Below, piece after piece: positions 1-64,000 of a DNA stretch of 64,000 nt. Position 1 is the first letter of the stretch. Each line of letters starts with the position of its first letter. This DNA is from Adineta ricciae (taxonomy: Eukaryota > Rotifera > Eurotatoria > Adinetida > Adinetidae), in contig CAJNOJ010000072.1 in NCBI GenBank assembly GCA_905250025.1, positions 11,456 through 75,455 on the forward strand, written 5' to 3'. The notes beneath the pieces are model-generated. The model was given only the letters and a program-made list of their open reading frames with translations, was not told the origin of the DNA and made no database searches. The translations under genes and the position numbers were made by a program.

Positions 1-2
1 GG

Positions 3-2282
3 AAAGGCAAAAAGAAGAATACAGAAGTGCCGAAGAATGAAGAAGTAAATACGAAGACGAAATTGAATTTCTTTTTCTCAACTAACCTTTTAGGTCGATG
101 ATGATTTTCTCATGGTCTCAAATGAACTTCAAGCAGCACCAGCATCGAAAGAAACAACGTCTGATTTATTCTCGACAGATACACGCCTTTTGAATCCCTT
201 GAACGAAATGAAAAAGAAATTCGGAAGCAGTATTGTCGAACAAATAGAACGCGAGAATAATCCTACCGCCCAAGCCGCTTTTGCGAATATGTCCGCACAA
301 CGGTATATAGATTCTCCATCGCGTTTTAAAATATTCTTTATTTTGCATGTTTGCTATAGTCGCCGTGCTTATCAAATCCTTCAACAACAGCAACAACGAC
401 CGACCACTCGGATAGCAAAACAAAACGCTTTCATTACTTCGAAATTAGGATGGCCAGTGTACCATAAATTTGGTAAGCTTACTGTTAAACTGATGAAGAT
501 GATGATAATAAAACAGTTGGTCTTGTATAGGTCTACTGATGAAACCATCAGCACCATTGAATGAAACTGCGCCCAATACGGGAAATTATTTCCAATTTGA
601 ATATGACAAAGATTATCAACGAATTCAAATCCAGTTTTTAGATTTTGTCGATCAACACGATCTTCAAGGAATCATGGTTTGTTTAGAATATTCTACTTTC
701 GAGTATTTCATTTCTTTTCTTTAGGATATTCTTCGTCACTATCCTTACCATATCGATTCATTGATTCACTTGAGCGATGTGAGTCGAATGCAGGATGATA
801 CACCAACCGCTGTCGATTTAATTGGTATAGAAATCATTGAAATTTGAAAGATAAATAAGTCATCATTACGTGTTTTAGAGCGTGCTTTGTACAATTTTCA
901 ACAGTCATTTCATCCGCTGTTTTCGATCACACGTGGTGAATGTCGTTTGGAATATCGAGTCCAAGAAAATCGATCTTTTTTCATTAGCCTTTTTAAACAC
1001 ATAATCTATATCGGTGAACGTGGTTGTTCAAGGACAGCATTGGAGTTCTGTAAAGTACTCTTGAGGTAAAGTCTGTGAACATAAAATACTTCTTACTTAT
1101 ACTGATTACCAACTTTAGTCTCGATCCAATCGATGATCCTCTTGCAATTCTCCTTCTATTCGACTACTATGCAATACGCTCGGATGAATACAGTTATCTT
1201 ATACGATTTTATATTGAACAGAATCAACGATTACGATTGAGTGGCTTACCAAATTATGTTTTCTCTGTTGCATTGGCGTACTTTCGTAACTCGTCCTACG
1301 ATCAAGCGAATGAATTGTTACAAGACGCATTGTTACGTTTTCCTTCCGTATTGAAATATTTGCTTGACAAATTATCAATTAGACCCGATCGCACCGTTGA
1401 AAAATGTCGATTCTTCTCTGATAGTGAACGATATGATTCAAATGCATTGAAATCTGTACAACAATTATATGTTGTGCGAATGGCGAATGAATGGAAAGAG
1501 AAAGACGAACTCGACTTTTTGAAAAGCAATGTTAACGAAGTTATTGACATTGTCGAACGAAATCAAGATGATCGCATTGCAAATTATACAAAGACGTAAG
1601 AAGATCACAAAATATGATATTCTATATTGTTTGCTTCAATCCTAGACGAGAAACATCTTATCGTCGAACACCAATGAACGTTTGTCGGCATATTGTTCTG
1701 TCAGAATCAAATGAAATACGTGGATTTCTGCCAAGTGTAAGTATTAACTATGGCACAACAGTAGAAAAGTGTGTTCTGTTATATAGGATATCGACGGCGG
1801 GCGAACTTTTTACTCGTTTGATCCTTTTCCTCCGCGAGATTCCATCGTTGGATTTCAACGACCAGAAAGGTATCCACACATTTTCGTAAAACAAACACAC
1901 GTTATTCTCTTTGTCTGATATTGTTAGACCTACTTTACAAGTGAATAATTCCTACAATTCCTTCGGTATGCTTTTGCGCTCGCTACTGCCGAATTTCAAC
2001 TTAGACGTACGTTAATTATGACTCAATTATCTAAAATAAAAAAGAAATTTTTCGTGTATTTTCTAGAACTTTCTTGTCGCTGGTGATGCTCAAGCTGGTG
2101 CTGTCGGTGGTGGTGCTAATGCTGCCGCCGGCGAAAATGATGTCGGTATGTTGCAAGCTCTTCAAGAAAGTATACGTGATTTCATTCGTGATATCGGTGT
2201 TACGAATATTGATGAGAATCAATTACAACAACAGCAACAACCGCCGGATGATGACGATGAAACTAATCAGGAATTTGATTAA
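3..2282 (+). CDS. TCF25: TCF25/NULP1 homologue, copy A, 5'-partial
   Basis: Homologue of transcription factor 25 (NULP1; yeast Rqc1), known as a component of the ribosome quality-control complex on 60S subunits. The family match is strong throughout: the block FQFEYDKDYQRIQIQFLDFV, then HYPYHIDSLIHLSD, then FHPLFSITRG..RLEYR..ENRSFF, then GCSRTALEFCK and LDPIDDPL. The lysine-rich N-terminus lies upstream of the window. Exons read as 3-44, 94-472, 531-676, 725-824, 879-1065, 1119-1595, 1646-1736, 1787-1869, 1928-2006 and 2067-2282. All introns are GT..AG, about 47-58 bp, and keep the frame. The C-terminus is Gly/Ala-rich and then Gln/Asp-rich and ends EFD. It is convergent with the EF-hand gene, 173 bp away. 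The gene name is near certain; exact splice points are inferred from frame and consensus. Confidence 0.93.
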
Positions 2283-2455
2283 ACTCAATGGTCATGTTTA
2301 TAGAAAAGAAATACATCGCAAAAAAAAGAAATCAATTCACTGAAATTATATAATTGATCGATGCAGAATCGAAAGGAGATCATCTTGTAGAATACGATCG
2401 AATTGAACTGTCAATCGGGGATGTATTGTTTAGGAGGATCAAAGTTTGGAATTTT

Positions 2456-2997
2456 TCAGAGCATGCCTAGAATGAATATTCTTCCAAGATCAATTCGTAA
2501 GACGAAATCTTACCTCTTTGAATTTGAATAAACACGTTAATAAACTCATCGAACGTCAACACACCTAGATGAGAGAAAAAAATTTGTTTTTCCCCTAATT
2601 CGAATTTGTTTTTTTCCCTGCTCGCTTTCTTACCATTTCGGTCTGCGTCAAACATCATGAAGATTCCTAGAAATAATAAATCAATCTCTGAGAATCGGAA
2701 CATCTGATAAGCATACGCTCTGCTTCCATATCATTTCCATAGATATTATACGGATCATAGTTCGGTTTGATTTGATTGTACGTTTGTTTGAATTCGGCCA
2801 AATTCATTCTAAAATCGGGAGAAAAAACACATTGTTTTTCTTCTCTCTCCTTCGAAATTTTCTTACCGTCCATTTCTACCTGCGCGATCAATAAATGCAT
2901 CGTAGATTTGTTGAATAACATAAGGTTGCAATTGAGTCTGTTGAACAAAACGTTGAACTTCCTGATTTGATAATTTTTTACTTGTTTTACCACCCAT
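2456..2997 (-). CDS. Short neuronal-calcium-sensor-like EF-hand protein, copy A
   Basis: Five small exons (2997-2867, 2808-2717, 2666-2634, 2564-2514, 2466-2456) splice in frame to a protein of about 105 residues. It starts MGGKTSKK, a possible N-myristoylation signal as in neuronal calcium sensors. A degenerate first EF loop (DRAGRNGRMNLAEF) is followed by a canonical second EF-hand, DADRNGVLTFDEF, and then IQRG. Ordinary NCS proteins have about 190 residues and four EF-hands. This one stops just after the 'RG' that precedes EF3, and only 173 bp remain before the TCF25 stop, so EF3 and EF4 are absent. It starts 215 bp from the divergent AP-3 sigma gene. The calcium-binding family is clear; a specific NCS subfamily cannot be assigned. 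The final exon adds only three residues, so the 3' end is the least certain part. Confidence 0.72.
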
Positions 2998-3197
2998 TTC
3001 TCCGTTTACCATACGTTTCGTTTTTTCCCCAAACGTATATGATAGTATTTCTCATTTATGTTCTGCTTCACTGCCCATGTAGTCATTAAATATTTGTTGT
3101 GCTTACCTTGTTACCAGCGAAGGCTGACTAAGTAGAAGGGAAACGAAATGAAACAAAAAGAAAATGTATAATTTGTTTTTCTCGTTGATTTCCTTCT

Positions 3198-3199
3198 AG
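3198..3199 (+). promoter_or_regulatory. Candidate 5' splice-acceptor (possible spliced-leader site) of AP-3 sigma
   Basis: A pyrimidine-rich tract ending TTCCTTCTAG lies 13 bases before the AP-3 sigma ATG. It could be the acceptor of a 5'-UTR intron (possible donor GTAGAAGG near 3130) or a spliced-leader trans-splicing site, which bdelloid rotifers are known to use. Sequence alone cannot separate the two. Confidence 0.35.
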
Positions 3200-3212
3200 A
3201 TATCAAAAAGAA

Positions 3213-3832
3213 ATGATTAAGGCAATTCTCGTCTTTAATAATTCCGCTAAACCGAGACTGATCAAATTCTATGAGCATTATTCCGAAGAGATTCAACAAC
3301 AAATTGTTCGAGAAACGTATCAACTGGTGTCGAAACGAGATGACAACGTGTGTAATTTTCTCGAAGGTGGCTCATTGATTGGTGGCAATGATTATCGTCT
3401 AATCTACCGGCACTATGCGACGTTATATTTTATATTTTGTGTCGATAGTTCTGAAAGTGAATTGGGAATATTAGATTTAATTCAAGTATTCGTTGAAACA
3501 CTTGATAAATGCTTTGAGGTAATTAAGAATTGGTTTGTTTTTGGAGTATTTTCACTTGTTTCTCTTTGTAGAACGTTTGCGAACTTGATCTGATATTCCA
3601 TGCGGACAAAGTTCATTTTATTCTTCAAGAACTCTGTCTCGGAGGAATGGTTTTAGAAACGAGTATGAATGAAATCGTGGCACGTATCGATGAGCAGAGC
3701 AAACTGGAGAAACAAGAAGCGGGAATATCTGCGGCACCCAACAAAGCAATGACGGCTATTAAAGAAATGAATTTACCGCAGAAAATCAAAGATATGAAAT
3801 TATCTGATCTGAATTTGAATTTACGTTTTTAA
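3213..3832 (+). CDS. AP3S: AP-3 complex subunit sigma, copy A
   Basis: Small (sigma) subunit of the AP-3 adaptor, which sorts cargo from endosomes to lysosome-related organelles. Two exons, 3213-3518 and 3572-3832, give about 188 residues, close to vertebrate AP3S1/AP3S2. The start MIKAILVFNN..KPRL is the family N-terminus, and EEIQQQIVRETYQLV, RDDNVCNFLEGGSLIGG and FCVDSSESELGILDLIQVFV are near-invariant longin-fold segments. The second exon continues NVCELDLIFHADKVHFILQE and GGMVLETSMNEIVARI. The C-terminal tail (LSAAP-like, then KLSDLNLNLRF) is shorter and more divergent. An AATAAA lies 50 bp after the stop. The protein is essentially identical to copy B, implying strong constraint. Confidence 0.96.
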
Positions 3833-4427
3833 CTATTTTTAGTCATTCATGTCTTGTCAGTACTTTTATGTGTATAAATCGAATAAAAAGATAAAATTAT
3901 CTCATGCACGATCTGTCTAATCCAATGACATATCTGTTCGACTTTATGATGTACGTGAAAGATTCAATCGATTGCAATACGACGCGATCAAAATCACAAG
4001 AATGTATATGTACACATATCGTTACGTTCTGATCTAGCATTCCTTAATGTTAGGATGAAATAACAGCAACAATGGTACATATTCATTCCAAATTTCGTTT
4101 GACGTTGTCATTGTGACAAAATATCCAAGAAGATTTTCAACGACTAACCTTTTGCGATAGGGCAAATCTGCAAACGCATATGTGACAGAAGGTGAGATTA
4201 TGACATTTATCATGACAATTAGGTAAGTAGATGAATGCTTGAGAATGAATCAACTCCGTGGTGTTTAATATATACATGACTTTTTGTTTTCATTATTTGT
4301 GGATTTATTGATAAAAAACGTGTATATGATTTATCGATGAACGAAAAAAGGAAATAGGAGATCGACAAGAAAAAAAAGAATAAATCGTTATCTTTTCGTT
4401 CTCTCTCACAAAACATAATTCAATCTA
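3833..4427. other. Spacer between AP-3 sigma and eIF1A, copy A
   Basis: About 595 bp of AT-rich spacer between convergent genes. It holds the AP-3 sigma poly(A) signal and an unoccupied transposon target site at 4113-4120 (see copy B). No convincing ORF is seen. Confidence 0.7.
3882..3887 (+). terminator. AATAAA polyadenylation signal of AP-3 sigma, copy A
   Basis: Canonical AATAAA hexamer 50 bp downstream of the AP-3 sigma stop. It is conserved in copy B at 37282-37287. Confidence 0.6.
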
Positions 4428-5174
4428 TTAAATATGTGCTAACTCATCATGTCCTTCGGAATCTGAACCAGAGAGCGCTTGCCGCCGATCATTTCGTGCA
4501 CCTTTGCCTGACTCTTTTTTCGTGCCTATCAAATTTCGTGCATTCAGATTGCCCGTCTTCATCGGCATTCGATTTGGATTATAATACTCTTGTCCATCAT
4601 CATCCTCTCCATTGGACTCTTCCTCAGACAAACTCTCATTATTCCCAGTGCCTCGGCCATTCAGATTTCGTGGTAAACCATCTTCTTCCTCGTCAGATTC
4701 CTCGTTATTATGGCGCTCATCGAAGATAACATCATCTAGTCCTTCTGTATTGTTGGTTGTGGATTCGGCAATATTAATATTTTCCGGAATTTGTTGCATT
4801 CGCTTTAGCTCTCGTGCTTCATCGGCTAAAAAGAATCTATTCTTCATCGTTACTATTCATTTCAATGCCATCTTACCGAGATATCTCATAATAACATCGG
4901 CTTTGTCATCTTGATAACTACGTAAGCCAATAAGAATGACATCACCTTGATTAATCCATTGTTTCTTGCGTAATTTTCCACGAATGTGACAGAGACGTTT
5001 CTTTCCTCCAGCTGTATCGAAGCAGAATGCTTCTAAATGACCATTCCCCAATATACGTGTCACTTGTGCGTAAGCTTGTCCTTCTTCTCTGAGAATTAAT
5101 TCACGTTTGACATCGTCATTTTCATTTTTACCCCGACGACGATTCTTTCCACCTTTTCCCTTGTTTTTCGGCAT
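4428..5174 (-). CDS. EIF1A: Translation initiation factor eIF1A with extended tail, copy A
   Basis: eIF1A binds the 40S A site and promotes scanning and start-codon selection. Two exons, 5174-4877 and 4825-4428, splice in frame (...[11 protein letters not shown]...) to about 231 residues. The N-terminus [19 protein letters not shown] and the OB-fold block [32 protein letters not shown] match the family almost residue for residue. Human eIF1A is 144 residues and ends in an acidic DIDDI tail that contacts eIF5B. Here the acidic tail is about 85 residues longer, with interspersed acidic and Asn/Arg/Gly-rich segments, ending [12 protein letters not shown]. Copy B has the same extension with mostly Asp/Glu swaps, so it is real coding sequence. 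The function of the extension is unknown. Confidence 0.95.
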
Positions 5175-6731
5175 TGTATCTCTTGTGTTTTGATTAGTTG
5201 CTCGGTATTTATGACGTTAACTGTCAACTAGATAACTGCTTATATAAGAATACACGAGAAAGAAGGTGAATTTTGAAATCTGGAAAAAAAGAAAAATAAA
5301 TGACGTAAGAATTTTTGTCCTCATCAAGTAAGCAATTGATGTGTAGAAGGAAAAAGAAAACAAGCAATTTTCGATTTCATTGGTTCATTCCGTTTACCAG
5401 TCAGCAGAATACAACCAGTAGATGGCAACATATATCTACTAGTGCAACATTAGGTGCGCCCAGAACAAATGACTGATTCGCTCCTCTCACATAAAACCTA
5501 TTGGGATTGGGACGGCATTTATCTATATACCCTTACCGTTGCCGTTGGCGGTGCGGACGAGAAACATAATACAAGAAAAAAGTACAAAAAAAAAACACAG
5601 CGGAAAATTAACGTCTCATGTTTGATTTCTGACGAACACCACATTGATTCCCATCGATATTGAAAAGAAAATATTACCAGTTTAGTGCTCCCTGCTGAAT
5701 AGTTTAGATAATAGTTATCATGTGAATTTCAAATCACTTATACTAGTTGAGAAGTCATCATTAGATTGATTTGCTCATATTTGTCTCGGATCATTCTTTC
5801 ACTTCCATCCATGATTTGTAATGCCCTGTGGTTAAATCTCAATTTGCAACTCGGGCACCTGTATTTGTCATTTCCTTTTGCCGATATTTGTGTGACTTTA
5901 CATTTTATTGAGTCTCACAATGCGGCTAAATTTGTTGTTCTTCTCTGTGTTGATTGTTTTCTATATTTATATACAGTATTTTTATATTTACAGAATCTGG
6001 TCTTACATATGCCTTTTTATTGGTCGTTTCACACTATTTTTCCTGCCAAGCGTCAATCTACATCATTTCCGTATTTGTGTGGCATTAACGTATTTTAGGA
6101 TTTTGTCTTTTCAAAGTTTATATCGTCCTATATTATCAGATCTTTTTTCATCGTGAAAATACGAAAACATTGCTTTTTTAATTGACGACGGTGAACCATC
6201 TGGTTTGATAGAGAGGATAGTATCTCCAAATCTTCTTAACCTAACATTTCAAAAGATGATTACTGCGACGACATAATTTACCAGCTGACGAAACAAATGG
6301 ATGACACATCTGTAGACAATCACTTTCGTGTTTCATACATGTATGGGATGTTTATATGCTGGTAAGACTATTGGAAGAAAAACAACATCGTACTTAGTGG
6401 AAATGAATAGACAGTTTAGTATAGAATTTCTTGATGATTGAAAGTAAATATTTGTTTTGATCAATCAAAATATTAATTGAGAGAGAACTTGCTCTGTTGA
6501 GAGTCGTTCCTAAGAATAGAGATAAAGTGAGAGATAGTCATCTTTCTTTCACCATTAGTTTACCTTGCTAAGAAACGTAATTCACTATGACAGTTTGATT
6601 TCCTGTCTTGACTTTTGTATAGTCTATCGCTAAGTAACATTTTATTAGACCACGGGAAAATTGTTCGGCATATAGGACATAGGTGTTTTAGTCGGGCGTT
6701 ACTATTTGTTCTACTAGATAATACATTATCT

Positions 6732-7322
6732 ACAGTCTATTTCAAAACACAGTGTGCTCTGGTATATTTTGAATAACTCACGAACACAATTAGCTAGAGA
6801 CGTGCAGTTTTCATCGATCGATAGAGCAAACCAGGAGAGACAAGCCGTTAAAGACGCGAAGCACCAAATTTACTTTGAAAGTGTCATTTTTTTAGGACTT
6901 AAAAAAATAGATGCTGTTTTGCGACATGTCAAATTCTTTGTATTGCAAAAGAGATAGAAGAAGCGAGATACATAAGCAGAACTTTCACATCCGGACTAGC
7001 ATTATTCTCTGAGTTTTCTGAATCATCAAGTGACAGGTCATCACCACTATTACCATCGAGGATTTCTTCATCATTGCCTGTATGTCCTGCTTCTTTTATC
7101 TTTTTTGCAATGCAAAGAATTTGACATGTGACAAAACAGCATCTATTTTTTTAAGTCCTAAAAAAATGACACCTTCAAAATAAATTTTGGTACTTCGCGT
7201 CTTTAAAGACTTGTGTCTCCTGGTTTGCTCTATCGATCGATGAAAACCGCAGGTCTCTAGCTAATTGTGTTCTTGAGTTATTCAAAACATGCCAGAGCAC
7301 ACTGTATTTTGCAATACGCAGT
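6732..7322. mobile_element. Foldback MITE, Tc1/mariner-like, copy A
   Basis: Two inverted arms of about 235 bp (6732-6966 and 7088-7322) flank a loop of about 120 bp. The outer ends read CAGTCTATTTC...CAGTGTGCTCTGG, with the inverted counterpart on the right. TA dinucleotides abut both ends, as expected for a Tc1/mariner-type target duplication. The arms also match inside (the AGGACTTAAAAAAATAGATG segment and its complement). The loop, read on the minus strand, encodes an acidic Asp/Glu/Asn/Ser-rich stretch. The same element occupies the orthologous place in copy B. Superfamily assignment is tentative. Confidence 0.65.
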
Positions 7323-7889
7323 AGTTCTATTTAATTTTAATTTATTACCCGTAGCAGTGTGTGTTCCACACACATATCGGTAGTCGTCTTGATATTAAAA
7401 GATAATTAATTATGAAATTCGGATAGTTTATTCGCTTCTCATGTAATATTCTATGGTTTGATTCGACATAGGCGTTCAGTCGTCAATGAAATTGTCCGCC
7501 GTCTTGACAAGTTTTTGATCTTCTTAATTTTTAGCCAGGAGTTTTTGGACATTCTCAGTGCGTAAGAGTTTTATTCGAAGAAAAAGATCATACAATTTTT
7601 GTAGACATAATCTTGATCGATGAGATAGAAGATCATTGGTCAGGCAAGATTTGTGCATTGTTGTTACTTCAAAAGAGAAAAGAAACTCGTATCTGATTTC
7701 AATCAGCACTGGAGTGTAGTCAGGATTCTACTTGCCGGCTATTTTATTAAAATTTATTGCACACATCATAAATATGCATAGTTAATAAGAAAATCCATTA
7801 TGTTTGTAGGCAGTAGGAAAAAATGTTGATTGAGGAAGTATATACAAGCTCTATGAAGAAACTCAGCAACACATTTTATGATGCTCGCA

Positions 7890-8273
7890 CACATCAGTGT
7901 GAAGCTAGCATCAGAAAAAAACAAAAGCATGCGAAAAGTTATGTTCAAATGAATTCCCATTCATGAAAATGAACTCACTCGATGCAGAATTAAATTCTGC
8001 GTCTAATGATGGTATTTTTTATTAACGGAAGAACGATCGGGAAAGTTTTGTCTAGAATTTTTCTTTCTATGCACTAACGTACAGAAAGATATATATATAA
8101 CATTTTCTCCGTCGTTCTCCCGTTCATAAAAAAATATCACTATCAGATGTAAAATTCAATTCTGCGTCGAGTGAGTCCATTTTCATGAATGAAGGTTCAT
8201 TTGAACAAAGTTTTTGCATGAGTTTTGTTTTTTTTTTGGCGCTAGTTAAATGGTGCTAACTTCACACTGATCT
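7890..8273. mobile_element. Second foldback MITE, copy A
   Basis: Inverted repeat whose arms start CATCAGTGTGAAGCTAGCA on the left and end with the complement on the right (TGCTAACTTCACACTGAT). Inner arm segments also pair: GTTCAAATGAA.., TTCATGAAAATGA, CTCGATGCAGAATT and TTAACGGAAGAACGA all have complements in the right arm. The centre is near 8070. No transposase is inside. It is shared with copy B at the same position, so the insertion is old. The superfamily cannot be told because no clean target duplication is visible. Confidence 0.6.
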
Positions 8274-9936
8274 CACCATACTTTATCTATCAGATCGTAT
8301 ATTCAAACAGCTTATAGATGTGCGCAGGTAAAGCATGAGACTTGCTTGAAGTAAGGAAAGAGATCTTCATCTAAAATTTGAGAAAGTCGTAAATATATAG
8401 CTTTTCTTTTCAAGTTTTTATCTTTCTGATCGATCAGGCAAGATTAATTACGAGGGAAAGAGAAAACGATTACTGCATGAATTTTAAGACTGTCTACAAA
8501 GGCCTGGAAACAATATATTCATGAACATCGATTAGTATAGCCTGCGCTCGGTTTATATAAGATTAATGTCAGTCAGTTGCGTAGAGAACCGACTGCAATA
8601 GGTCAGCAATCTTCATATTAATGAAGACAGGTTTCTACATCACATGTCATTAATTTGCAGCCACGAGGGAAAATAGGAGCTCTAGAGAGTGTATTCTACG
8701 TTAATATATAAAAGAAAGATAATGGAAAAGGAGGTTCTTACTTGAGTTCAATAGAAGTTTTTATTAAATAACGAAAGTACGCTGTCAAACATAGGACCGA
8801 CTTTTAGTTCTTAATAATTTATATTATTATGTCAATTGTCACACTGTATTAATATATGTATTATTCTTGAGAATGGAAACCTAATTCGATTCTTATACTT
8901 ATTTGAATAGTAGAAAGGAAAATGAATGGTTAGAGTTTCAAAGAAAATGTCACTTCTGATAACACATGAGATCATATTCCATTTATAATCTGATGCGCAA
9001 GTAAATCATCATGTTTACCACTATAAATCAGCGTAAATATTGTCTAAGATAAGTGTAGTTTTCACATGCTACTTGTTCCAGACATTACTGACAGTAAGAG
9101 CATTTTTGTATAGTCAATTTTCATTACAAACCTGACTACTTCGAAGTTCGCATATGTCATCTTGCCGTCTCTACCATCGATAGCGCAGATTTAGGACAAG
9201 ATACTTTGCATAGAACGGCTTAGTCTTATTATTTCTTTTCGAATTTCCAGCATCATTGCTGCTGTCTACTCTTTCCTCTTTATATTACAGAATGCATGCA
9301 AATACTAATGTACCATGAAGACAAACACATATCTCTAGATGATTTTGCCTTGCATTCGTATCTACCATCCATTACCTTTCGTAGGTGAAACTTTAGCCAT
9401 TGCGTTTTCTTAAATGATGTTTGTCATCTTTCCGATGACAAGATTTTGCATCTCTAAAAATGACCACTTAGAATAATCCAACATAAGGGTATAATTGTCG
9501 CATAACCAACAAGGAAGTACGCACTCGAAAACATGTATTTTCCTTCTCACATGGGTTCCGTAACAGAAAATCTATTTTTATTCTTTAATTAGCAAGTATC
9601 TCATAGTAAATGATATTTTGAATGATACTTATCATGTGACTTCGAGTTGAACATGTTCCAAACAGAAAATAGAATGCGATACTCCATTTTTAGACCCTTG
9701 TTAGCACCGTTAAAAGTACACTTATTCTTTCGTATATGCGTACTCATGTATAACACGTGCATTAGATAGAGTCTAATCAGTTTTCGTCTACCTTCCTATC
9801 GACACATTTGTGTTTCATTCTTATAGAACGAAAGAAAGTAGTTTCTCGTTATTCATTGTAGACAACCATTGAAAAGAAAATTGAGCATAATCAACTACAA
9901 TTAAGCCGATTCTCGTCTCGTTAGTTTTAAACGGCA

Positions 9937-11607
9937 ATGTCTAATTTATCGACTCTCGCACCATCCCTGGCAGATTATGCTCCTTATTATTATCAATTTC
10001 GTGCAATACATCGTTTTCTTGTTAGCATCACATATCCTTATATATTTTTTATTACTTTTGTTGGTTTTATCACCAATACATTAACTGTAATACTTTTATC
10101 GAAAAAAAACGTGACCAAAAACTTGAAAAACAAATGGACGTTAATTGCATTAGGTACGTAGGTTCTTGGTTTTCGTAATAAATCTCTTAATTCTAAATCA
10201 GCAAAGACATGATAGAATTTTATTTTAAGATAAGGATGATATTAATTCAATTCCCTGAATATTTTATTTTGATCAAATAAAGGTTTCCAAACATGTACAC
10301 CTGAATTTTTCTCGAAGTTTTGAAAACTAATCAAATTGAATAAAACAAAGTTCACACATATGACTTTCATAAACGTCTTCCTTTTTCTTTCAGCGCTCAG
10401 CGATCTTCTATTCAACACAGTGTTACTAATTCGTGGAATACATGATCTTACGAAGTTGAAGGCACATTATATCTGTTTGGTCGTATCGTTCCTTAGCCAT
10501 CTCGCTGAGATATTATCTGCGTGTTATACCGTTGCGTTTACTATTCAACGCTACTACGCTATTCGATGTCCGTTGGAAGCCGCTGTTCGACGCCGTTCAT
10601 CACCTATTGTTTCTCTGCTGATGATATTCATTTTGAGTTCATGTTTTTGTTTTCTCATATCGTATTATAATAATTATGAAGATTGCCTCGAAGAATTATA
10701 TCTTAAATGGTTCATAGCCGATGCTTTGTTCTCATTTGTGATTCCGGTTCTATTAATTTTAATCTTCAATACACTCATTGTGAATTATATCCGAAAACGC
10801 TCATATGTATCAATGACTCGTGAAGCATCGTTATTCTCAGCGAGACAATTAGCACATGCTGACGACATGGACAGACTTGAACATAATCCAGTAACGATAT
10901 TATCAACAACATTGAGTCAAGACGACGGAAACGAATATATTGAATTGAATGAATCGAACGGTGTCAATCAATCATTCGTTACATCAGTAAGTGTATACTA
11001 CGCGTCTAACAATTGTTTGACTTTTGTCTATTCTTAGCGATCAGAACGTGCTAGTTCGGGGGAAGTATCATTAAATCGACAATCTCGAACGAAAGTCCAA
11101 TCACAACGATTTTTCTATCGCCAGAAACTCATATCCTTCGATTCCTATTTTAAACGAAAATCGAAGAAATCTTCGTCTCAATCTAATGAGAATGAGACCA
11201 TGGATCAATTGTCAACGAAAACATCCCAGTCTATACATGTTACACGAATGCTTGTTCTCGTTTCCACCTGCTTCCTTCTACTAAATGCGCCGGGACATAT
11301 ATGTGTCATTATATTGAAAGTCTACATCGATGTTTACAATCGACCAATGGACGGTGAACACATTTCCTCTTACGATTACAGTTTAGTACAAAATTTCACA
11401 TCAAACAGCAGCATGATCTCATCTTCTCAGTCAAAAGAATCAACAACTAGCGATCAATTAATAATCCATTTGCTTTACACTGCTGTTTTATTCGCGCAAT
11501 TAATCGCGTATGCATCATATTCCATAAATTTCTTTCTCTATTCATTCAGTGGGATAAATTTCCGAGCAAGTCTTCGACAGTTAATCAGACGATTCCGAAA
11601 ACACTGA
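9937..11607 (+). CDS. Class-A (rhodopsin-like) GPCR, copy A
   Basis: Three exons, 9937-10153, 10394-10986 and 11038-11607, encode about 459 residues with seven membrane segments. TM1 carries the GxxxN motif (GFITNTLTVILLS), TM2 has ALSDLL with the conserved Asp, and TM3 ends QRYYAIRCP, a variant of the DRY motif with Gln for Asp/Glu. TM5 has the conserved Pro (FVIPVLLILIFN). A long Ser-rich third cytoplasmic loop spans the second splice junction. TM6 has NAPGH in place of CWLP, and TM7 has SINFFLYSFSG in place of NPxxY. The TM7 form resembles invertebrate peptide receptors of the FMRFamide type, but the ligand cannot be called. It is convergent with membralin, 223 bp apart. Copy B is intact with the same intron positions. 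Confidence 0.88.
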
Positions 11608-11830
11608 AGCCTTGCAACTGTTATTTTTTTCGATATGAACTCTGTAAAGGATTATGCTTATCAACACGCTCAGTCGTTGTCGTTTTTTTACACAGACAAA
11701 AGAAAAGGAAGAATGCCATGACTAAGATATATGAAGAAAATAAAAAGGAATCGTTTACTCATGTACATTGGTTAAAAAACACTGAACGAAAAGAGAAGAA
11801 TTGAATTTGTTAGAAAAGTCGATAATTGAA

Positions 11831-14543
<2,713 letters not shown>

Positions 14544-14670
14544 TACATTGTCCGAATGGAAAAATGAAACATTGTTAACGAATTAAGTATCTATCTGAAA
14601 AGTCAAAATAAAAGACAAACAACATTGAGAATTAGAAAATGAATGAAAGACGGCGATTTGTTTTTAACGA

Positions 14671-18285: not shown

Positions 18286-18287
18286 AG
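18286..18287 (+). promoter_or_regulatory. Candidate acceptor/spliced-leader site before GST, copy A
   Basis: CCGTCCTTAG ends 16 bases before the GST start codon and is conserved in copy B at 51993-51994. It could be a trans-splice acceptor or a 5'-UTR intron acceptor. Weak evidence. Confidence 0.3.
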
Positions 18288-45648: not shown

Positions 45649-48250
<2,602 letters not shown>

Positions 48251-48376
48251 TACATTGTCCGAATAGAAAAATGAAACATTGTTAACGAATTAAGTATTTA
48301 TCTGAAAAATGAAAATAAAAGACAAACAACATTGAGAATTAGAAAGTGAATGAAAGACGGCGGTTTGTTTTAACGA

Positions 48377-51300: not shown

Positions 51301-51692
51301 TTCAATTTTTCGTATAAAGCTGAACGTTGTTTTCTCTGCAGATCTTGTAATAGACTTTGATCAATAACAAACTGACGTGTAAGTGGCTCGAAATACTGGA
51401 ATGAACTATGAAGATTATCGAATTTCATCGTATGTTCAGCATCATCAATATCGAGTAGCGGTTCTTTGGAATAGTTTTGATGGAATAATTGTCGAATTTT
51501 TGTGACACGTTGAATTTCGTTTGGAGTTAATTCAACTGTTGCTACAGACCGAGAAGATGGTTGTGGCGCAGTTTTCGGCCGTTGACGTTGACGTTGAGCA
51601 TACCATAAACCAATGGCTTTTCCATGAAGATGTGGTGGATGACGGTTAGAAGAACGAGATTCGATATTGTTATCTGTGTCTGAATTGTCCAT
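48377..51692 (-). CDS. DHX36: DEAH-box helicase DHX36/RHAU, copy B
   Basis: Counterpart of 14671-17987. RHAU-specific motif ([15 protein letters not shown]), [30 protein letters not shown] and [13 protein letters not shown] are all intact. The first intron's donor is GTTGGA here instead of GTAGAA in copy A, a weaker but legal GT site. The two stop-free 3n introns are also stop-free here. Neighbours and spacing match copy A. Confidence 0.94.
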
Positions 51693-52010
51693 CAGTGAAC
51701 AAATGTTGTAAGAAACGCAAAATCGATTTGAAATACTATTGTATGAACGATGAAACTTTCACCATGAAAAATAATTATTTCATTAATTATTTGACTTCGC
51801 CGAAGTCTCCAGCATTCGACGATTTTTCAGATAAATATGAATGGTGCAGATCAGCAAGGAATAGGATTAATGGGACAGATGTCGTTGTGAGATTGACTGT
51901 TCGGATTGTCGGATTGTGTTATCTCCTCAACGTATACGAGTGAATCATACATTATCTATTCGAAATTTATTATTGAAATTTCGTCCGTCCTTAGTTTCAT
52001 CAATTGAATA

Positions 52011-52940
52011 ATGTCTGAAGAGCTGATCCTTCATCATTATGAATCGTCTCCATTCGGGGAGAAAATTCGTTTAGCTTTAGGTTTAAAAAATCTACACTGG
52101 CGCTCAGTCATTAATAGTGTAGTTCCTCCACGGCCTTTTCTCACACCCTTAACTGGTGGTTATCGTCGTATACCAGTACTTCAAATTGGTGCTGATATCT
52201 ATTGTGATACACATCTTATTTTACGAACAATTGATCGTCTATGACCTGATGCACCATCACTCTTTGCCAATAAAACAACTGAACCATTGTGTTGGTGGTG
52301 GGATAAAGCAACATTCGCGCCTGCAGTTGCAGTTTGGATAAGTTTTGTAGGTGACAAATTGCCAAAAGAGTTCATCGATGATCGGAAAAGATTTGCACCG
52401 GGTTTTGAATTAAATAAGGAAACAAGCGGAGCAAATCTTTCTTTACATGTTCAACATATTAATGCGCATTTAGTCTGGTTAATAGATATGCTAGCTGATG
52501 GCCGTCCATTCCTTCTAGGAGAACCATCGGCACTTGATGTTACAGCATATCATACACTTTGGTTTGTTAAACGAAATTGCGGTGAAGGAGCCAAAATACT
52601 TCTTCCAAATTTATACCAACCAGGAGTGTTATTTTCATGGTTTGAACGCGTTGCTGCATTTGGTCATGGAACTAGAGAAACTTTAACACAAGAGCAGGCA
52701 CTTGAAATAGCTAAGCAAGCTACGCCTGTTGAGCCGAATTACATTTCACAGAACATTGATAATGAATGGGAGATTGGTGAAAAGTTACGTGTTGTGCCTG
52801 ATGATACAGGTCGCGTACCAGTTGAAGGAACATTAGTAGCAGTCGATCGTCATGAGATTGTTTTGCGAATCTCAGATGAGCAGACCGGCGATATTAATGT
52901 TCATTTTCCACGTGCTGGATTCGAAGTTACACGGGCCTAG
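52011..52940 (+). pseudogene. Glutathione S-transferase family gene, copy B, nonsense-mutated
   Basis: Counterpart of 18304-19233, the same 930-bp length without indels. Codon 78 is TGA (52242-52244) where copy A has CGA, a single C-to-T change. Translation would stop after about 77 residues, inside the thioredoxin-like domain just after the CDTHLI segment. The frame downstream stays open to the original stop. About 20 further residues differ from copy A over 309, more than in flanking genes, which suggests relaxed constraint. A sequencing error or editing cannot be excluded. The upstream acceptor (51993-51994) and the AATAAA at 53046-53051 persist. Confidence 0.8.
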
Positions 52941-53045
52941 TGATCACAAGAGTTTATACACGATGTCTTTTAGTTTTGACTTTTCGATGAACAATAGTTA
53001 AGGGTATAGTTTTCTATTAAACACGTATAACATGATGACATACAT

Positions 53046-53051
53046 AATAAA
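53046..53051 (+). terminator. AATAAA polyadenylation signal of GST, copy B
   Basis: Canonical hexamer about 106 bp past the original GST stop, conserved with copy A. Confidence 0.5.
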
Positions 53052-53129
53052 AGTTCTATTGATTGAATATATATTTTTCTTGAGATTCACACATATCAAT
53101 ACAAAAAGACAAACAATGAAAAAAGAGAT

Positions 53130-56100
53130 CTAATAAGGTTTAACAGTCATGCAAATTCCACGCCAGGCCCATCGTGATGCTTGACCAATAACCGTTGTCT
53201 TTTTCCATAATTCTAATTCACAAATGACTTCTGTATTACGTCGCTCCATACAGCGCTTCGGAAATATTGGACATGAATATGTATCGGTTGTTGTCGGTCG
53301 ATTTGGACCTGTCGTATCCGTTAGAGTTTGTGGTTGTGCAACAACTGGTGCCGCTTTTTCTGTTGGTACACATGTTAAATGTATGACGGGCATGAGTGAG
53401 CATCCTTCTCGATTTCTTGTCGGTGCATCAGAGATACCATGCTCGACGATATTTTTATCTCCACTGCATCCCCATAAGTAAAGACCGTAAATGAAGAGAC
53501 CGTCTTTTGGTGCTTCACGGATATGTTCTCGATCGCGTGGTGTTAGTTCACATTGAAACATAAGGGAACTATTGTTTGAATCATCAGAAATGTTTAGTGA
53601 GTGTGCAATTTCTTGTTTATAGATACCAAACAACGCTGACGCATTGAAGAATGCCGATATATTGAATGCTGGATGTTTTTCGCGACCTACAGTAGACAAT
53701 CCGTAGGACTATGGAAGAAAAGAGTCAATATATCATCTTACCTTTGGTTAACAACTTTTCAATATGTTCTGCCCGCATGTTTAAATCGACGAAAAAGTTC
53801 GTCAAACCCCAGATTGGTGGTGGTGCACTTAACCCAATTGCATCGCACCAAACATCAGGTATACGTTGATAATACAAAGCATGAGCAACATCGGCTAATT
53901 CTTGTGACCAATGTACGCCTAATTGACTTAGATCACAGGCAGTTTTGATCGATTGTACGTGAGTACGAATAAGATTCACAAGATCTGTTATTAATTCTGC
54001 TTCACGTATTATCCATACATTGAAAGGACTTGTTAGTGGTGATCCATTACGACGTGCACGATCTAAGATTTGATCCTAATGCACAAATACGTAGAAATCG
54101 AAGAAACTTTCTGTAGAAGGATACCTTACTTTAGTTAAAACTTTCGGTAACTTCGTAGCTAATATAGACGCGCAACATTCTTCTAATCCCTGATTCTTCT
54201 TTGCCGAAAAAGAATGCAATGCTGAAGAACTAAATGAGTTCCATAATCCACTTGACGAAGAAAATGATGTATTGATGGTCACATCTATTCGAAATTAGTT
54301 AGAAAAAGAATACTTTCTCGAAGGTAAACTCAAACCTTCGATTGGTGTATTTGGTCGTTGAAAAATAGATGCATTCAAAGACACATTCGGCGGCAATGCA
54401 TCTAATATTCGATTAAGCCGATTGAGAATGAAAATATCATCGCCCGTGCTTGCTTCAAAACTTGAATGAAGATGGCATGTTTCCGCAACGTCAAACTGAT
54501 GTGTTGGAAGTGCTTCGAGTGCTTGCAGTAATTGGCTTAGTTTTGGCTGTTGTGTAAAAAATATTGATGGAATCTTGTATTTGATTTTGGAATACTCAAA
54601 GTCTTTTCGAACAGATCCAGGTTGAATCCAGAAATCGACAATATTCGAAATGGCTCGTTGATCATATTCACTCAAAGCTTTAGCACCGTAAATCAATTCT
54701 GATAGAGTATATCGCATCGAAGACCACGATAGTTGTCGAGCGTTGGTTTCATTCAACGCTGTGGCATTTGCTGCCGACGAATCCAGTCGAGTTGCTGATT
54801 GGTCGCTTAGAGCAAATTCTCTTGCAACAACTTGAAACGCGGAAGTTAATTCGACATTCGTAAATGTTGTTAGTGATGGAATATCCCATCCAGCGTGACC
54901 GTATCGTGCACGAAGATTGAGTGTTGAATGGATGTAACAAATGTTGTGCAATAGTGGGAGCCATTCGGATTTTAATGAATGGCGAAGCAGATCATTGTCA
55001 ATGATAGAAAATGCTCGCGTTATTGCTTCTTTCATTGATACTGGTGTGCGAACGTAAGTTATTAAACAGAGATCGTATAATGAAGATGGAAACGAATAAG
55101 TACGCTGAATGCTAAGCCAGATACGAGGCATTGGTGTCGGACGTTTTAAACGAAGTTCCCAAAGTGATGTTTCAACATGAGACAAGAATGAAGGGTTGTT
55201 ATGTAGACCATGGAGAAGGAGCCAAACATTCTAAAATAAAGATGCTTTTAATCAAAGAAACACAAAATGCTCGTGCACGTACATTTGCAATAGCATTTTT
55301 GAGTATTTTTTTCAAAATACGTTCTTCTCTTGCACCAGTTCCGTAAACATTGATGATTTGAATTGTTGGCGCAATCGTTGTTGCGTCGGTCGAAATGGAA
55401 TTTGTACAGAAATTGAAATAATTAATCACTTCATCGGGTTCATCATCGTATAGTAATAAAACAGATCGTTGACTACTTTGACGTAGCATAAGATCAACAT
55501 CTTGTTGAAGTGTTGGTATAACTCTACATTCAAACAGAAAGGTTGCTGTCTTTGAAATGTCAAATCACACTATTTACGGTATAGTTGGTGTACGAGAAGA
55601 TGTTTGTTGTGGATGATGTTGTTGTTGATCTTGTGCAACGGCTTTCGGTTTGTTTGAACTGAAAAAAAAACGGATTGTTTTTAATATAAAATTTTACAAT
55701 CAATTTATGGGCTTTACTCTTGTTGAAACACATTCGAAATGTAGACAGTTGATGCTTGAATCAATCGATCACTTCTGATCGCTCGTACAACGCAGAACTT
55801 TTGAATTGGTTCCAGCTGTTCAAGTGGAGGTGGAAATATACAATTTTCAGTATCACCTTCACAGAATGGACGCCATTTCACTTCTTGAACTTCTTTGACC
55901 ATGCGATCAAATGGATCAGCAAACCAATCAAAAAACATTGCTAAGTACTAAAATGAAAACGAAGTTCATTATGGTCATTCATGTAACGAAAAATAACAAG
56001 TTACTTGAAGATTTTGAAATGCCTCATCAGTCATCCAATCGAACGGCTTTTTATAGGATAGAAAACGATGCTCATTCGATGCCCGAGCGGACCGTTTTTG

Positions 56101-59100
56101 TAGTAATGTGGCAGCCCATGCTGGTGAAACAATGAATTCTCGTTCACCCGATGGAAGATTCGAGTCAAATTGTTGGTTTTGACGACGATTGAACGATTCA
56201 ATCTAAACAGTTTCAATTTCATACGTCAACAAAAACTTACAATAATTTTACATACCTCCATGGCAAAATATATCGAAAACACACGTCGATCGCGATCATT
56301 CAACATTCGATAGATTGTCATATATGCACTCTTCGTTAAATCAGTCATGACATTATTCATCGAATGTCTACAACAAATTCTTGGGTTTTTGATAGTTTGA
56401 AAACAAAGAGATTTTCACGTACTTTTCAGATTGGAAGATGCAACTATCAAACAAATCGAGAAAATGTTCCAGTGGCATCACATATTCCGGAATGAGTTGT
56501 TGTAAATAATGTAGGGTGTTATAGCATGTGGCAGCGCGTAAAGCTAATCTTCGATAGCTATTTCGAGTTTTGAATAGACTCTCTTCTTGTAACGCCACTC
56601 GCTTCGATCTTCGGATGAAAAAGAATGCAATTTAGATTTTCTTTTGTTTTGAAAAATCAATTAATACCCTTCGATAGCTTCGTCATACGCTTTCTTCAAG
56701 TCGGACAAGCGTTTCGTTGGTTCGACGCTTTGTAGCAGATTGATCGTATCTGATGCCAGATAATTTGTAATATTCTGTCGTAATGGATCAATAATTTTCA
56801 ATGTATCAACTTTTTCCTAAACAAAACTCTACCGATGATGTAAGAATGAGGTTTAAAAGTGAGACAAACCTGTAACAATGTATATTGTTCAACATCGATA
56901 TGCGGTTTTTCTTTGACCATGAATCGACTTAAAAAGATTTCTTCCAGATCGTTCAGCGTCAAATGATAATTCAAGATCAATGTGTAAGCAGCTAATTCCT
57001 TTGGAATGAATACCGGTTGTATTATTGTATGCAAATAAAGCCTATTATCAACAGACAACATGAATACAAAGAGAACGAACATTCATTTGTTAACTAACCG
57101 GAATTTAGGACTACATTCGATTTCTTGTTGGCCTAATTGTAATTTGAATGGTTTCTCGCTTGAGAAAAACCGTGCTTGATTTCGAATAACTGTTTCGAGT
57201 TTTTCATTGTTCATCAAAGTATTCGTGTCGCAATCAGTTATGAGCAAATGGTGACCTTCCGAAAGAGCATTTTCTAATTGTGTACGTAGTTGCTAAACGA
57301 AAATAACTCAACTTAATCAATTAAAACAAGAAGAGAATGTTATACATGATGTCGAACGATCAATAGTTTCTTGTTCTTTGAAAACAATCGAATATAATCG
57401 ATAGAGTACCATGTGGCATCATATATAAGTGGCCAAGCATTGATACCTGCGTCTGCCATGATTACACAGCCATTTTCGGTAATGATATCAGTTGGAATGA
57501 GACGGAGTAATTGAAATTCTTTCAGTTCAATCGGATTGTATAGAAATTCTGCCAGTGTCATCACTTGGTTATTACGATAAGTATTGTTCGTGGAATCTAG
57601 CGATTGATTGATCATAGAAAATGAGAGATCGAAGCTATTCTTCGAAACACTATCCATTGGAATTGACTATTCAAAGAGAAAAGTAGAGAGCTTTTTTCCT
57701 TTTTGACAAATCGTACGACCTACTTGAAAAATCAAATCCGATTCGCGAGGAATTTCATACTGTTCACAGAATTTCGTGAATTTCTCACTGAAAATGCGTC
57801 TCAAATCAGCGTCTAATGATGAACAGTATGTCATATAGGCTGCAGCTAATATACAATTCGTTAAGGTTTGATCATGTGTTGAGTGTTCTGTAATCCATTT
57901 CGTCCATTGATCTTCCAAATCAGATAAACTACAAGGAAAACAACTCAGTTAATTCAGTGATTCGAAAGTAAACTTTCGCTTCAGTAAAACCGTCACTCTG
58001 TTGATAGTAGTGAACATGGTCAACTGAAGGTGATGTTAGAGTCTATGGAATTCTGTTGGGTTTTTGAAAACATCAATTCTCATTACCAGACGCTCTCATC
58101 AAGTGGTCGAGCGGATTGATCTCGTCTGTAAACATGAAAATAGCATATTATTTGAGCACATATATACAAAAAATCAATACGATATGAACAGAGACAAACA
58201 TGCAAAAGAAAGTATCGACGAAACAGAGAGGGAATAGGCCATCTTACTGTTTAAATGGTCTAATATCAAATAGTTCTAGTTCGTACAAACTGATATTCAA
58301 AGATCAATCGATGAGAATTCTTTTTGAGTATTTCGATATTTACCTCTGTGTAACATTTAACGCTGCTTGTAAACGTGATTGACAACTTTCGTATTCTTTT
58401 CTTAGTTTGTTTTTATTAACTGCTGCAGCATCAAAACGTGTTTGTGCCTCTTCCAATTGACTAGTTAAACGTGATATATCATCCAATGTATATTGTGATA
58501 TGTCAACTAAACGACTATCTTCTTCACTGATATCGGCGTTATGAAGTGTTTCTTCCATGAGTTTCAATCGGCGAATCTATATGAAAATCAATTGGTATTG
58601 ACATCAAGAAAGTAGTGACAACAAACTTCAGTTTCTCGTTCGATTCGTTTTTGCTCGGCTTCGATTAATTCTTGTTTGAGTTGTTCGACTTTTTCTTTCG
58701 TTAATCGTAACGGTTGACAGATTTTTGTATATTCCACTAAAGCAATAGCATAATGAACGAGTATTGCAGCTTCTTCCGAAGCATAACGAGCAGCTCCTAA
58801 AGTTATGCGATTCTCTTGTGCTGCAGTTGCACGTGTAGGAGGCACGTGAAAATCTATGAATACAAAAAAAAATATGTAGCTTGCAAATCGAAGGTTATTT
58901 TCAGCTAGAATACATACTTTTGGCGTTTTCTAATAGAGTACCTTCACCCGTAATTCCATCTGATATTCCATCCTTTCCTTTGGCAATGTACGATTCCACC
59001 GCTGGATAGAGAGAGAGAGAGTCTATTTATGTTAAGTTTTATTCAAGAATTCATTTACCATTTGAAATATCGAGATTGAGACCATCTTGCCAATCTAAGC

Positions 59101-62100
59101 CATGCAAAATATCCACAAATTTAGCAATATCAGCCATATGTGCTGTATATTGTTTCCACTGATGTCGATCAAGACGTTCGGCTTGTAGTTTTCCTTAAAA
59201 TATTTTGCTTTCTGAGATCTCACATTGCAATCTTCAACCAAATCCTCACCTCGTTCGCGTTCTTGCTCGCGTTGTTCAAAACGAACAGGAGGTTTTCGAG
59301 CAATCAATATTAGAACTGAAAGTATCGATAGTATTAAAGAGAGAGAGGGAAAGGGGCGAAAATGCGATTTACCCATCTCCATAATGGTTCCGATAAGAAT
59401 GGGCGGTGTTTGAAATGTTCGAATACGTTCAATACATGATTTGTCAACTTTACTCTTCCAATGTTCGACCTCTTTACGTTTCTCTGCTAATTTTTCACGC
59501 CACTGCTCAACTTCTCGTACTGCTTCGTCATGTTCTTCTTGCATTTTCACTTGCCGCGATCGTAATGAATCGTCTTTCATTCTCTTGAATGCTTCTTCAT
59601 ATTCATCAGCTTCATCTAAATCACAAAAGTTTCATCAGAACATAAATCGTTGGTACTGTACCTTCCAAAAGCGTCTTTTTGTCTCCATCGGGTAAACTGA
59701 AATCTTCTTTTTCATCGCGATAAATATAACCTGGTAAACATCCCGGCAGAGCATACTTCGCGCGTAATTTTTCCAAAACCATCGATTTGTAGATAACTTC
59801 TTCTAAGAGAACAGCTGTTTCCTTTTCACTATCCAAACATCGGTCTTTTAATTGTTGAATATACTCTTTCATTTCTTCGGCATTCTGTCGAGTTTTGCTC
59901 AAAGTACTAAGCACTTTTCTTAATCGAATGATGTCACGCTCACAGACAGCTGCTTTCGAAGTAAATAGATACCAGAACGATTGCATAAAACGTGTGAATG
60001 TTTCTGGTCCAATAAATGTATGGAGTGGTGATGTAGTAAAAGGTTTTCCTGCGCCATGATTCTTAATTTGTTCGTGTAAAAGCATTCGCGAATACGGATA
60101 ATTCGGTAGTTCAATATCAACGATTTTCGCTTCTTTATTCACATTTTTTTTCGTAGAAACTTGTTCGCGGGACGACGTTGATCGGCTTGTTAACGGGTGG
60201 TTTTGATTCACTGGATTCTCCCGAATGATTATCGTTCGATCTGTACTACCGACAAACGGAACTTGTCGAGATTCATCGAGCATAAAATAATGGATGTCAC
60301 ACAGGCATTGCGATAAACGCTTATGAAGATCATCGGAGAAGAGTGTTTCATGTGACGAAAGAAAATGAGATGCTTCAGTGTTCAGTGCTGCTTTTGTCCA
60401 GTTCTTTATCCAGTAAACTTGAGTATGTTTGAGCAAGCCCGGATATTCACTAAAGAGAGTTTCTATTGAAAGATATTGTAAAAGAATGAGGTTAACTTAC
60501 TAGGAGAGATTCTTCAGTAGTTCACTATGTGATGGCAAACATATAGCTACATGAAGATTTTGACGAACACGGGTAAGAAAGCATCGTCGTGGATCAGTTA
60601 ACACAGCAATCGACACATCATGATCACGTTGATATGCATTGATCACCGCCTAAAATATTCCAATAGATTCCTATGTGCTGTAGCAAAGAATAAAATCAAA
60701 CCTGATAAAGTCCTTCTAGTTCATCTCCGCTGAACAGATGCGGACATTCACCGCTTGTCAATAAAGATGAGATATCATCGATGATGTCTGGATCACGTAA
60801 GTGTTTGTACTACGAATACAAGATATATATGAGAGAACTAAATATGTGTTGTTATAAAAAGATTCGTACTGTAAGTAGAACACCAATGTGTCGTCCTTCG
60901 ACGGATGCAGTGCGAATCACAGCCTTCAGACTATCGTAAAAAAGACTCTTATTTGAATAATCAATTGTATATTCTTGAATTTCAGCGAAATAGAATGCTA
61001 ATCGAACCAATTTTGATAAATGCGAGCCAACCGTACCAATAACAAACAGATTGCTCCTAAAATAAATCAGCAGCCACAATTGTGTACGTAAAATCAAAAT
61101 CCAAAACTTACAAAGTCGGATGAGAAAGGATACGATGCATGCGTATAATATGTAAAGCTGTATTTTCGGAAACGGTCAACGCCGATGTATTATGTCCGAG
61201 CTCTTCCTTATAGCGTAAAGCCGCTTGATCAATTATTTTACGAAGTGCACTCAAAGATTCCATTGGTTGAACTTGAGTCTACCGAAAACAAACGAAGCGC
61301 ATTTGTTTTTATGCATATTTTTATCTCTTTACTTTGATCTCTTTGACAAACAACGACGTTAGTGGTCGCTCATAACTTCTTCCATCAATTTGGAATGTTA
61401 TATATCGATGATCCTCTTCACTTTTTGTCCAACCAAATGTCTATTTAAACGAAAGAAACGCAATTTAGTTCCATTCCCTTTACTTTAACATTCTTACATT
61501 TCGAAAGACTTCATTCAATGTGTCGATAAACCAGTACTGATCCATTTCTCTTGTAAGTTGATCGTAAATAATTCGAAATAATTCATGTTTAAGAAACGGT
61601 GCGACGAAATTCTTATCATTTCTCAAATCGACATCAATTAGTCGCAAGCTTTGGATTGACGTTAGCATGTTTCGTAAAGAAAATAGATAGTGTTCTCTTC
61701 CAGGTACGGAACTCGACTGAAGGACACGTTGAATATGTCGAAGTGTATCCATGAGAACATCGACGATTTTCGTTGAGACATCGTGATCCATTGGTGTCTT
61801 GCCATAACTCATCATATTCACCTAAATTTACAAACAAACGTGTCGTTCAATACTTTTGAGATATAATTACATCGATGACATTTGTCAGTATATGACGAAG
61901 TGATGCTTCCGATGCTGGTAGATTAACAATTACAAAATGACGCTGAAAGAAAAAGAACCGAAATCCAAATTCATTGCTCGTTTATGTAACATACCAACAA
62001 TCGCGGACTCTGGGTTAGTAATGATTGTTCGCCAGTGGGTGGAATGGTAGCTGTGGCAAAGACGAAAAGATCATCAATAATACGTGTTTCGTATGGTTTC

Positions 62101-64000
62101 TGTTGTGTTATAAATTGACGATGATCAATGAGAGTACGAAGAAACTATAATGAAGAAGGGTTGGTTTATACAAAGGAAAATTGCGAGTAAATGATTTACT
62201 TCAGGTGCATTTTTGAATTTATCTAATTTGGCTGTTGCTGATGCTTGTAAATCATCAATGAATAAGCAGAACTTCTTGGCTAGTGGAGCTCCATATGTAA
62301 AACCTTGTCGATGAACAACATTGGCTTCGATAATCTTTTGTAGATCGGCTGAATTAGTTGATTTGGAAAAATTCGTTCGAGTCGTTTGAAAATGAGTAGT
62401 ATCTAAACACAAATTCATTCGATATTCTTATTAACAATGGATTTGATTTTCAAGACAAACCTAAACCACTGAGAAACGTATCGAGGAGGAATGTTTTACA
62501 CGAGCCAGTTGTCCCGCTAAGTAAAATATTAACTTGCGCCATTGCAGCATATTTCAAAAAGTAATGTGCACGGGCTAAGTCAACTGTTTGCACAAGAACA
62601 TTGCCGAATATGTCAATACGATCTTGAATATTTTCATTCAATTCTTCAACCCTAACGCAAAAAAAACGAAGGAAATCAAATGTGATTTGATTAAATGTTT
62701 TGTAATGTTTACTTCGCAGTCCAAAGATCCCATTCACAAGCTTCGTCAACATAATAATCAAAGACTGATATTTCGCGATCATCATCTGGTAGAACAGCTG
62801 TTACAGTCTTCAGCAAATCTGAATAACCTTTTTGTTCATCAGGATTAAGTATAATTTTCAAGACAAATGTCAAACAGAAAATAAAGAAGCGTTCGATGTG
62901 AACATCAGTTGTAATATGCGTATTCTCAAGCAAGATTGCATCCAATAAGCGAAGTGCGATGGCAAATAAGCTCATTTCCGAATAATAAATTGACCTGATA
63001 AGAAAAAGATACGCTGTAAGTTTTCAGACAGACAGACATTCATTCATAATCGTTTTCATTACCTTGGACATTCTTCGCGAAGGTACGTTAGCACGGGATC
63101 CATCACTCGATCGAATGCTCCTCGAAGACACTAGAAAATCATACGAATAGTTTGTGGAGAAGATTTCTCTTGTTCTGAAACGAACTTCTAATTGACGTCG
63201 ATCTTTCAACCAAGTACCAGCAAGAACTTTCCAATCGATAACAGACTTATCGAAGTAGATAACTGTCTGGAAAGAAAGTCCGATGGTTTATAAACGAGAG
63301 AAAAGTTCGCCTTACTGAATTCGCAATAAATGCTGGCGACGCATCGGTTAACTCGGATGTTTCAAACATAAACTTCACTTGATCGAGAAGGTATAATTTA
63401 TCCCCAGTACGTATTTGTAATGATGCTTCTTTCTCCAGTATTGATGGAAGTAGATCTGCCCATGTTCGGCTGATACTTCCATCGAAACAAAACCAACTCT
63501 TGTGGCAATTCTATTCGAAATTAAACATCTCAAATTTGCTTTTTCCTCCTTGCAGTACTTTACTCGGTTTGCTTTGCGTAACATCGTAGTAAGAATACCA
63601 TCTTGCCATTCATTAGCTAAGGAATAGTAACCAAGAAGGATGCTTTCCGATTCAATAGCTAATGGATTGATTCTATCGACGAAAAACAACATGCTAGTAT
63701 GTCTTAATCAATATAAAACCGAGAAAATCTTTACCGATAAAGTTTATGGGTTTGCCCAGCTGATTCTTGTGTATAATTGGCTTCTTGACTGATTGAGCTT
63801 GACTTTTGTTGTTGATACGCGGATAGTAATTGTTGCTGTTGTTGTATTTGTGTTAGAACATCGATCATTAACATTGCTGCACTGGATTTGCCGCTATAGG
63901 GTGAGCCACATAGTATCATATCTAAAGAAACGATTGACTACAAGTTTCGATATGAAATTTCGACGAACTTTTCGAAACATTCGCTGCGTGAATCATTTGT
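53130..64000 (-). CDS. Divergent dynein heavy chain (DNHD1-like?), copy B, 5'-partial
   Basis: Counterpart of the copy A dynein from the stop back to AAA2, where the window ends. All short exons line up with copy A and no frameshift or premature stop was noticed. AAA2 GSPYSGKS (63884-63907), AAA3 GTTGSCKT and AAA4 GTVGSHLS are identical to copy A, so the unusual AAA3 and AAA4 P-loops are shared. The AAA2 Walker B position reads LFFVDRINP. AAA1 lies beyond the window, so its status in this copy is unknown. The stalk and C-terminal domain are conserved. Confidence 0.85.

Follow-up and report, generated by a model that had tools for sequence, protein, structure and literature searches.

The stretch of DNA analysed here (the window) comprises 64,000 nucleotides of the bdelloid rotifer Adineta ricciae (assembly GCA_905250025.1, contig CAJNOJ010000072.1, hereafter C72, positions 11456-75455; GC content 36.0%), and it carries the same block of about 33 kb twice, in direct orientation, on the two sides of the only N in the window. 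The block contains, in this order, genes for TCF25 (plus strand), eIF1A (minus), a rhodopsin-like G protein-coupled receptor (plus), a helicase with HA2 domains (minus), a glutathione S-transferase (GST)-like protein encoded in a single open frame (plus) and the 3' part of a dynein heavy chain (minus). The layout of the two copies, A and B, is as follows, in window coordinates.

1..33409 (C72:11456-44864; 33,409 bases), plus strand: copy A, probably allele 2 of the block, lying between the run of N at C72:1-11455 and the single N; all except its first 5 bases fall within the alignment to copy B.
33410..33410 (C72:44865), no strand: the single N, a scaffold join, whose flanks share no exact suffix/prefix overlap of 8-200 bases.
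33411..64000 (C72:44866 onwards), plus strand: copy B, probably allele 1, of which C72:44866-78586 (33,721 bases) is homologous to A; the sequence then continues free of N to at least C72:130000.

Alignment with MAFFT matches copy A from position 6 to copy B from position 33411, end to end and in direct orientation, with 31,089 of 33,159 aligned bases identical (93.8%) and 85 indels, the largest being 378 bp of extra sequence in B. The homology starts directly after the N and, at the other end of A, stops directly before it. Only 30.6 kb of copy B lies inside the window, and its homology to A stops at C72:78586 (equivalent to window position 67131), 3.1 kb outside. Chance is excluded as the source of the match on account of its length and identity. 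The preliminary description, made from the letters of the window, had proposed a doubled 33-kb block joined at one N, with the copies beginning at nearly the same base in TCF25, diverged by a few percent and keeping every gene and strand. These points are borne out: positions 6-33409 recur after the N, the starts are 5 bases apart (the extra bases being in A) and are followed by a 180-bp exact match common to both copies, the aligned bases differ by 6.2%, and all 11 open frames of A that were sought in B were found there, each on the expected strand. Seven of these 11 frames are without a stop in B; in two eIF1A frames the stop in B is the last codon, and in one dynein frame it falls at the 8th residue, ahead of a Pfam match that starts at residue 20. 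The genes were placed as follows.

94..1596, plus strand: TCF25, copy A, with its first exons outside the window; PF04910 on 1054-1596, and a Tcf25 family search matches C72:12045-13084 (window 590-1629). The frame at 94-561 has no Pfam match and is assigned to TCF25 by position.
33499..35001, plus strand: TCF25, copy B, placed by the Tcf25 family search and the comparison of frames between A and B.
4428..5213, minus strand: eIF1A gene, copy A; NCBIfam TIGR00523 matches the frame at 4857-5213 (E 7.8e-29; 99.6 bits, below the cut-off of 102.9), and 4428-4853 is added by position. Copy B is at 38233-39018.
10324..11604, plus strand: rhodopsin-like G protein-coupled receptor, copy A; PF00001 on 10324-11034, with no match in Pfam for 11038-11604. 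The first frame in B is at 44143-44853.
15709..18104, minus strand: helicase with HA2 domains, which we take to be of the DEAH type, copy A; PF00271, PF04408 and PF21010 on 15709-16986, with no Pfam match on 17475-18104. The main frame in B is at 49415-50650.
18304..19230, plus strand: GST-like gene, copy A, one uninterrupted open frame of 309 amino acids; PF13417 and PF13409.
52008..52937, plus strand: GST-like frame, copy B, with an in-frame TGA at 52242-52244 (CGA in A).
20586..33409, minus strand: dynein heavy chain, 3' part, copy A; PF18198 on 20586-21518 and PF08393 (profile positions 189-353) on 32415-33074, the N interrupting the gene within the DHC_N2 region.

The divergence between the copies is of the size expected within a bdelloid genome. 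Over the 11 open frames (2,565 codons) the pooled synonymous divergence (dS) is 0.154 and the nonsynonymous divergence (dN) 0.025, giving a dN/dS of 0.16, as expected of alleles under selection. In A. ricciae, alleles are reported to diverge by 5.5% (PMC7953838), and a passage in the literature defines allelic regions in A. vaga by a Ks of at most 0.2. That A and B are ohnologues from an old tetraploidy rather than alleles would fit the ancestral tetraploidy that PMC5916493 describes as conserved across the four bdelloids under comparison, but the identity of 93.8% and the dS of 0.15 fall within this allelic range, and we consider such an origin extremely unlikely.

Per 1-kb bin of A, the identity ranges from 86.5% (7-8 kb) to 97.0% (32-33 kb); the four bins at 6-10 kb lie at 86.5-88.5% and the others at 91-97%. 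This fastest-diverging part of the block holds two imperfect palindromes in both alleles, 77-90% self-complementary, whose diverged arms argue against an amplification artefact.

6730-7324 and 7915-8234: imperfect palindromes, copy A.
40493-41080 and 41657-42038: imperfect palindromes, copy B.

The number of places occupied by the block was determined by searching the assembly (130.46 Mb in 1033 contigs), with only the best candidates scored and C72:1-11455 reading as N. Four probes, taken at window positions 33000-33400, 33411-35400, 15700-17700 and 1-185, each matched in two places, namely copies A and B. A probe at 6700-7340, over the first palindrome, gave five matches, all within copies A and B, and the Tcf25 family search also gave five, all in the two C72 copies. 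No third place for the block was found with the four probes and the Tcf25 search, among the best candidates scored and with C72:1-11455 reading as N, and by these searches A and B are so far each other's closest copies. A further copy with exactly the sequence of A or of B would, however, have been collapsed during assembly and so have escaped this count.

A second copy of the sequence that follows the homologous block lies on another scaffold (C165). A probe taken just to the right of the end of homology (C72:78590-79990) has its second copy on the minus strand of C165, 95% identical, and altogether C72:78752-110251 has its second copy at C165:31767-1, minus strand, not after copy A. By BLAST, C72:78752-80644 corresponds to C165:31767-29866 and C72:80445-110251 to C165:29867-1, both reversed, at 94.9% and 93.5% identity, respectively. 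A MAFFT alignment of C165:1-31915 with C72:78587-110251 gave 94.1% identity over 31,534 aligned bases, a figure that includes a duplicated overlap and an inverted tail, and the divergence is alike for A against B (93.8% identity) and for C165 against the haplotype of B (94.1%). Only about 165 bp are missing between the end of A and the end of C165, and both breaks lie inside one open frame, C72:78242-78802. This frame matches PF08393 at profile positions 8-186, directly before the 189-353 of the neighbouring frame of A, and it also matches dynein heavy chains of solved structures. The two-copy region is thus covered once by B with the following part of C72 and again by A with C165. At C72:110251, C165 terminates in a 121-bp exact match to C72, and in 1.7 kb probed past this point no second allele was found; two weak matches there (75% over 102 bases and 79% over 75 bases) are not alleles. 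The k-mer size named for 'maxhap' assemblies in PMC7943196, where the others are given default settings, is likewise 121, and no inference is drawn from it.

Since the dynein-side continuation lies on C165, with the breaks 165 bp apart, A and C165 would form one haplotype, and B and the rest of C72 the other. It is very probable, judging from the assembled sequence, that A and B represent a single bdelloid locus in two diverged allelic versions, assembled as separate contigs that were then placed end to end, with no real duplication. The preliminary description had left the choice between two concatenated haplotype contigs and an allele-like tandem duplication, leaning towards contig ends at a shared breakpoint, and had pointed to the whereabouts of the dynein or TCF25 5' sequence relative to the N as a check. 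For dynein, this sequence turned up in two places, following copy B on C72 and on scaffold C165, but not after copy A; when the 5' exons of TCF25 were sought, the family search matched only copies A and B, with C72:1-11455 reading as N. The first option is strongly favoured because the haplotype that ends at the N resumes on C165 within 165 bp and the four probes find two places each. What is observed directly is where the copies lie, that they are homologous, how many places they occupy in the assembly and that C165 has the complementary end; the join itself would be a software error, with A belonging to the haplotype of C165. It seems that both alleles were assembled as separate contigs, haplotype 1 consisting of copy B with the sequence that follows it on C72, and haplotype 2 of copy A, then about 165 bp that are missing, then C165:1-31767 in reverse complement. 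Copy A, the short piece, would then have been set ahead of the long piece B and joined to it by one N. The observed layout would result if contigs were ordered by their position on a reference or by read pairs and an overlapping placement was rendered as one N. Where a gap is predicted to be negative, SSPACE inserts a single N.

A real tandem of diverged alleles on one chromosome, A then B, arising for instance by unequal exchange between homologues, is the order that the scaffold shows as assembled, and two tandem homologous blocks on single scaffolds have been described in another A. ricciae assembly (Nowell et al., 2018, PMC5916493). An extra copy identical to A or B would also collapse unseen. 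However, the sequence is not unbroken across the junction, the boundary being a single N between flanks that do not overlap, and none of the four probes found a third place. Moreover, unless a copy has collapsed, the dynein gene on C165 would lack its 3' part, and its break would by coincidence lie no more than 165 bp from the tandem boundary. We consider a real tandem very improbable. Its specific form, in which exchange between unequally aligned homologues left one homologue with both alleles in a 33-kb tandem and the other either truncated in dynein or carrying a copy identical to one of them, is given a similarly low probability; if it were true, simple meiotic pairing would be impossible at this locus.

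Several points weigh against reading A and B as falsely joined alleles. The case is built on assembled sequence throughout. Because any third copy with exactly the sequence of A or of B would be merged during assembly, the copy number, taken alone, is compatible with a recent real tandem, and the genome search scores only the best candidates while C72:1-11455 reads as N. A homology that ends at the unit boundary is also what a real tandem would give. Section 17 of PMC7943196 names no scaffolding step for the A. ricciae assembly ARIC003 that would account for the link of the tail of A to the head of B. Finally, C165 is joined at position 31916 to a RING-finger gene, not to A, which we read as probably another misjoin.

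The genome studied is probably the ARIC003 assembly, the DNA for which was whole-genome amplified from about 200 animals (PMC7943196). If so, the number of animals would leave room for a mixed sample in which A and B stem from separate animals or clones, a reading to which we attach a very slight probability.

The probable false joining of two alleles at the N has close counterparts. In false heterotype duplication, as the Vertebrate Genomes Project terms it, two diverged haplotypes appear as adjacent copies on one scaffold with an assembly gap between them, and the signs given are half depth, a gap between the copies, discordant reads and one-copy k-mers (PMC9516828). At the present locus the single N stands exactly at the boundary of A and B, and the copies differ by 6.2% over aligned bases (dS 0.154), against the 5.5% of A. 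ricciae; as an added sign, a continuation of the displaced haplotype is present at another place in the assembly (C165:31767-1, minus strand). The cases described in PMC9516828 were examined with depth, read-pair and k-mer tests, whereas the present one is known from assembled sequence. In the same genus, allelic gene blocks in tandem on one scaffold have been described in PMC5916493, which counts 2 tandem and 23 palindromic linked homologous blocks in the 2013 assembly of A. vaga and 2 tandem ones in the 2018 assembly of A. ricciae; many of the collinearity breaks found there span scaffold gaps, and some may be scaffolding errors. Unlike those blocks, which probably belong to a different assembly, the doubling described here has the continuation of its displaced haplotype located on another scaffold. 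The A/B doubling is very probably a further case of a known assembly error, false heterotype duplication, and not a new structure.

Linked alleles on one scaffold were formerly taken as evidence against meiosis in bdelloid genomes (PMC5916493). The case of A and B shows how a misplaced haplotype contig can create such a linked-allele structure, and it offers a simple test, which is to search the assembly elsewhere for the remainder of the displaced haplotype. Counts of genes in the assembly may also be inflated by false paralogues, which at this locus would include those of TCF25, eIF1A and the helicase.

Single-N joins were surveyed in C72:11456-130000 and C165:1-50000, and four were found, one being C72:44865 between A and B. 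At C165:29865, about 200 bases are repeated on both sides of the N, 197 of them exactly, and were never merged. The join at C165:47770 is flanked on both sides by repeats of sequence lying 5-7 kb away. To the left of the one at C165:31916, the final 154 bp are an inverted piece that matches haplotype B at 100%, and this join is likely to be another misjoin. The three joins on C165 are all suspect. Around the one at C165:31916, C165:31762-31916 consists of the inverted haplotype-B piece fused to haplotype A-like sequence, followed by the N and by a gene that has a RING finger and long frames resembling coiled coils, and which by eye we take to be similar to BRE1/RNF20; when an allele of C165:31917-33900 was sought in the assembly, only this segment itself was matched. 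The 154-bp inverted tail has the shape expected of the inverted chimeras that multiple-displacement amplification produces (PMC13265396).

The GST-like gene, interrupted by TGA in copy B, may have been acquired horizontally and be broken in one allele, or the interruption may be an assembly error. Bacterial and archaeal genomes were scanned with peptide patterns, and of 24 candidate stretches a single one was confirmed as a relative, 35% identical and located in a Janthinobacterium metagenome-assembled genome.
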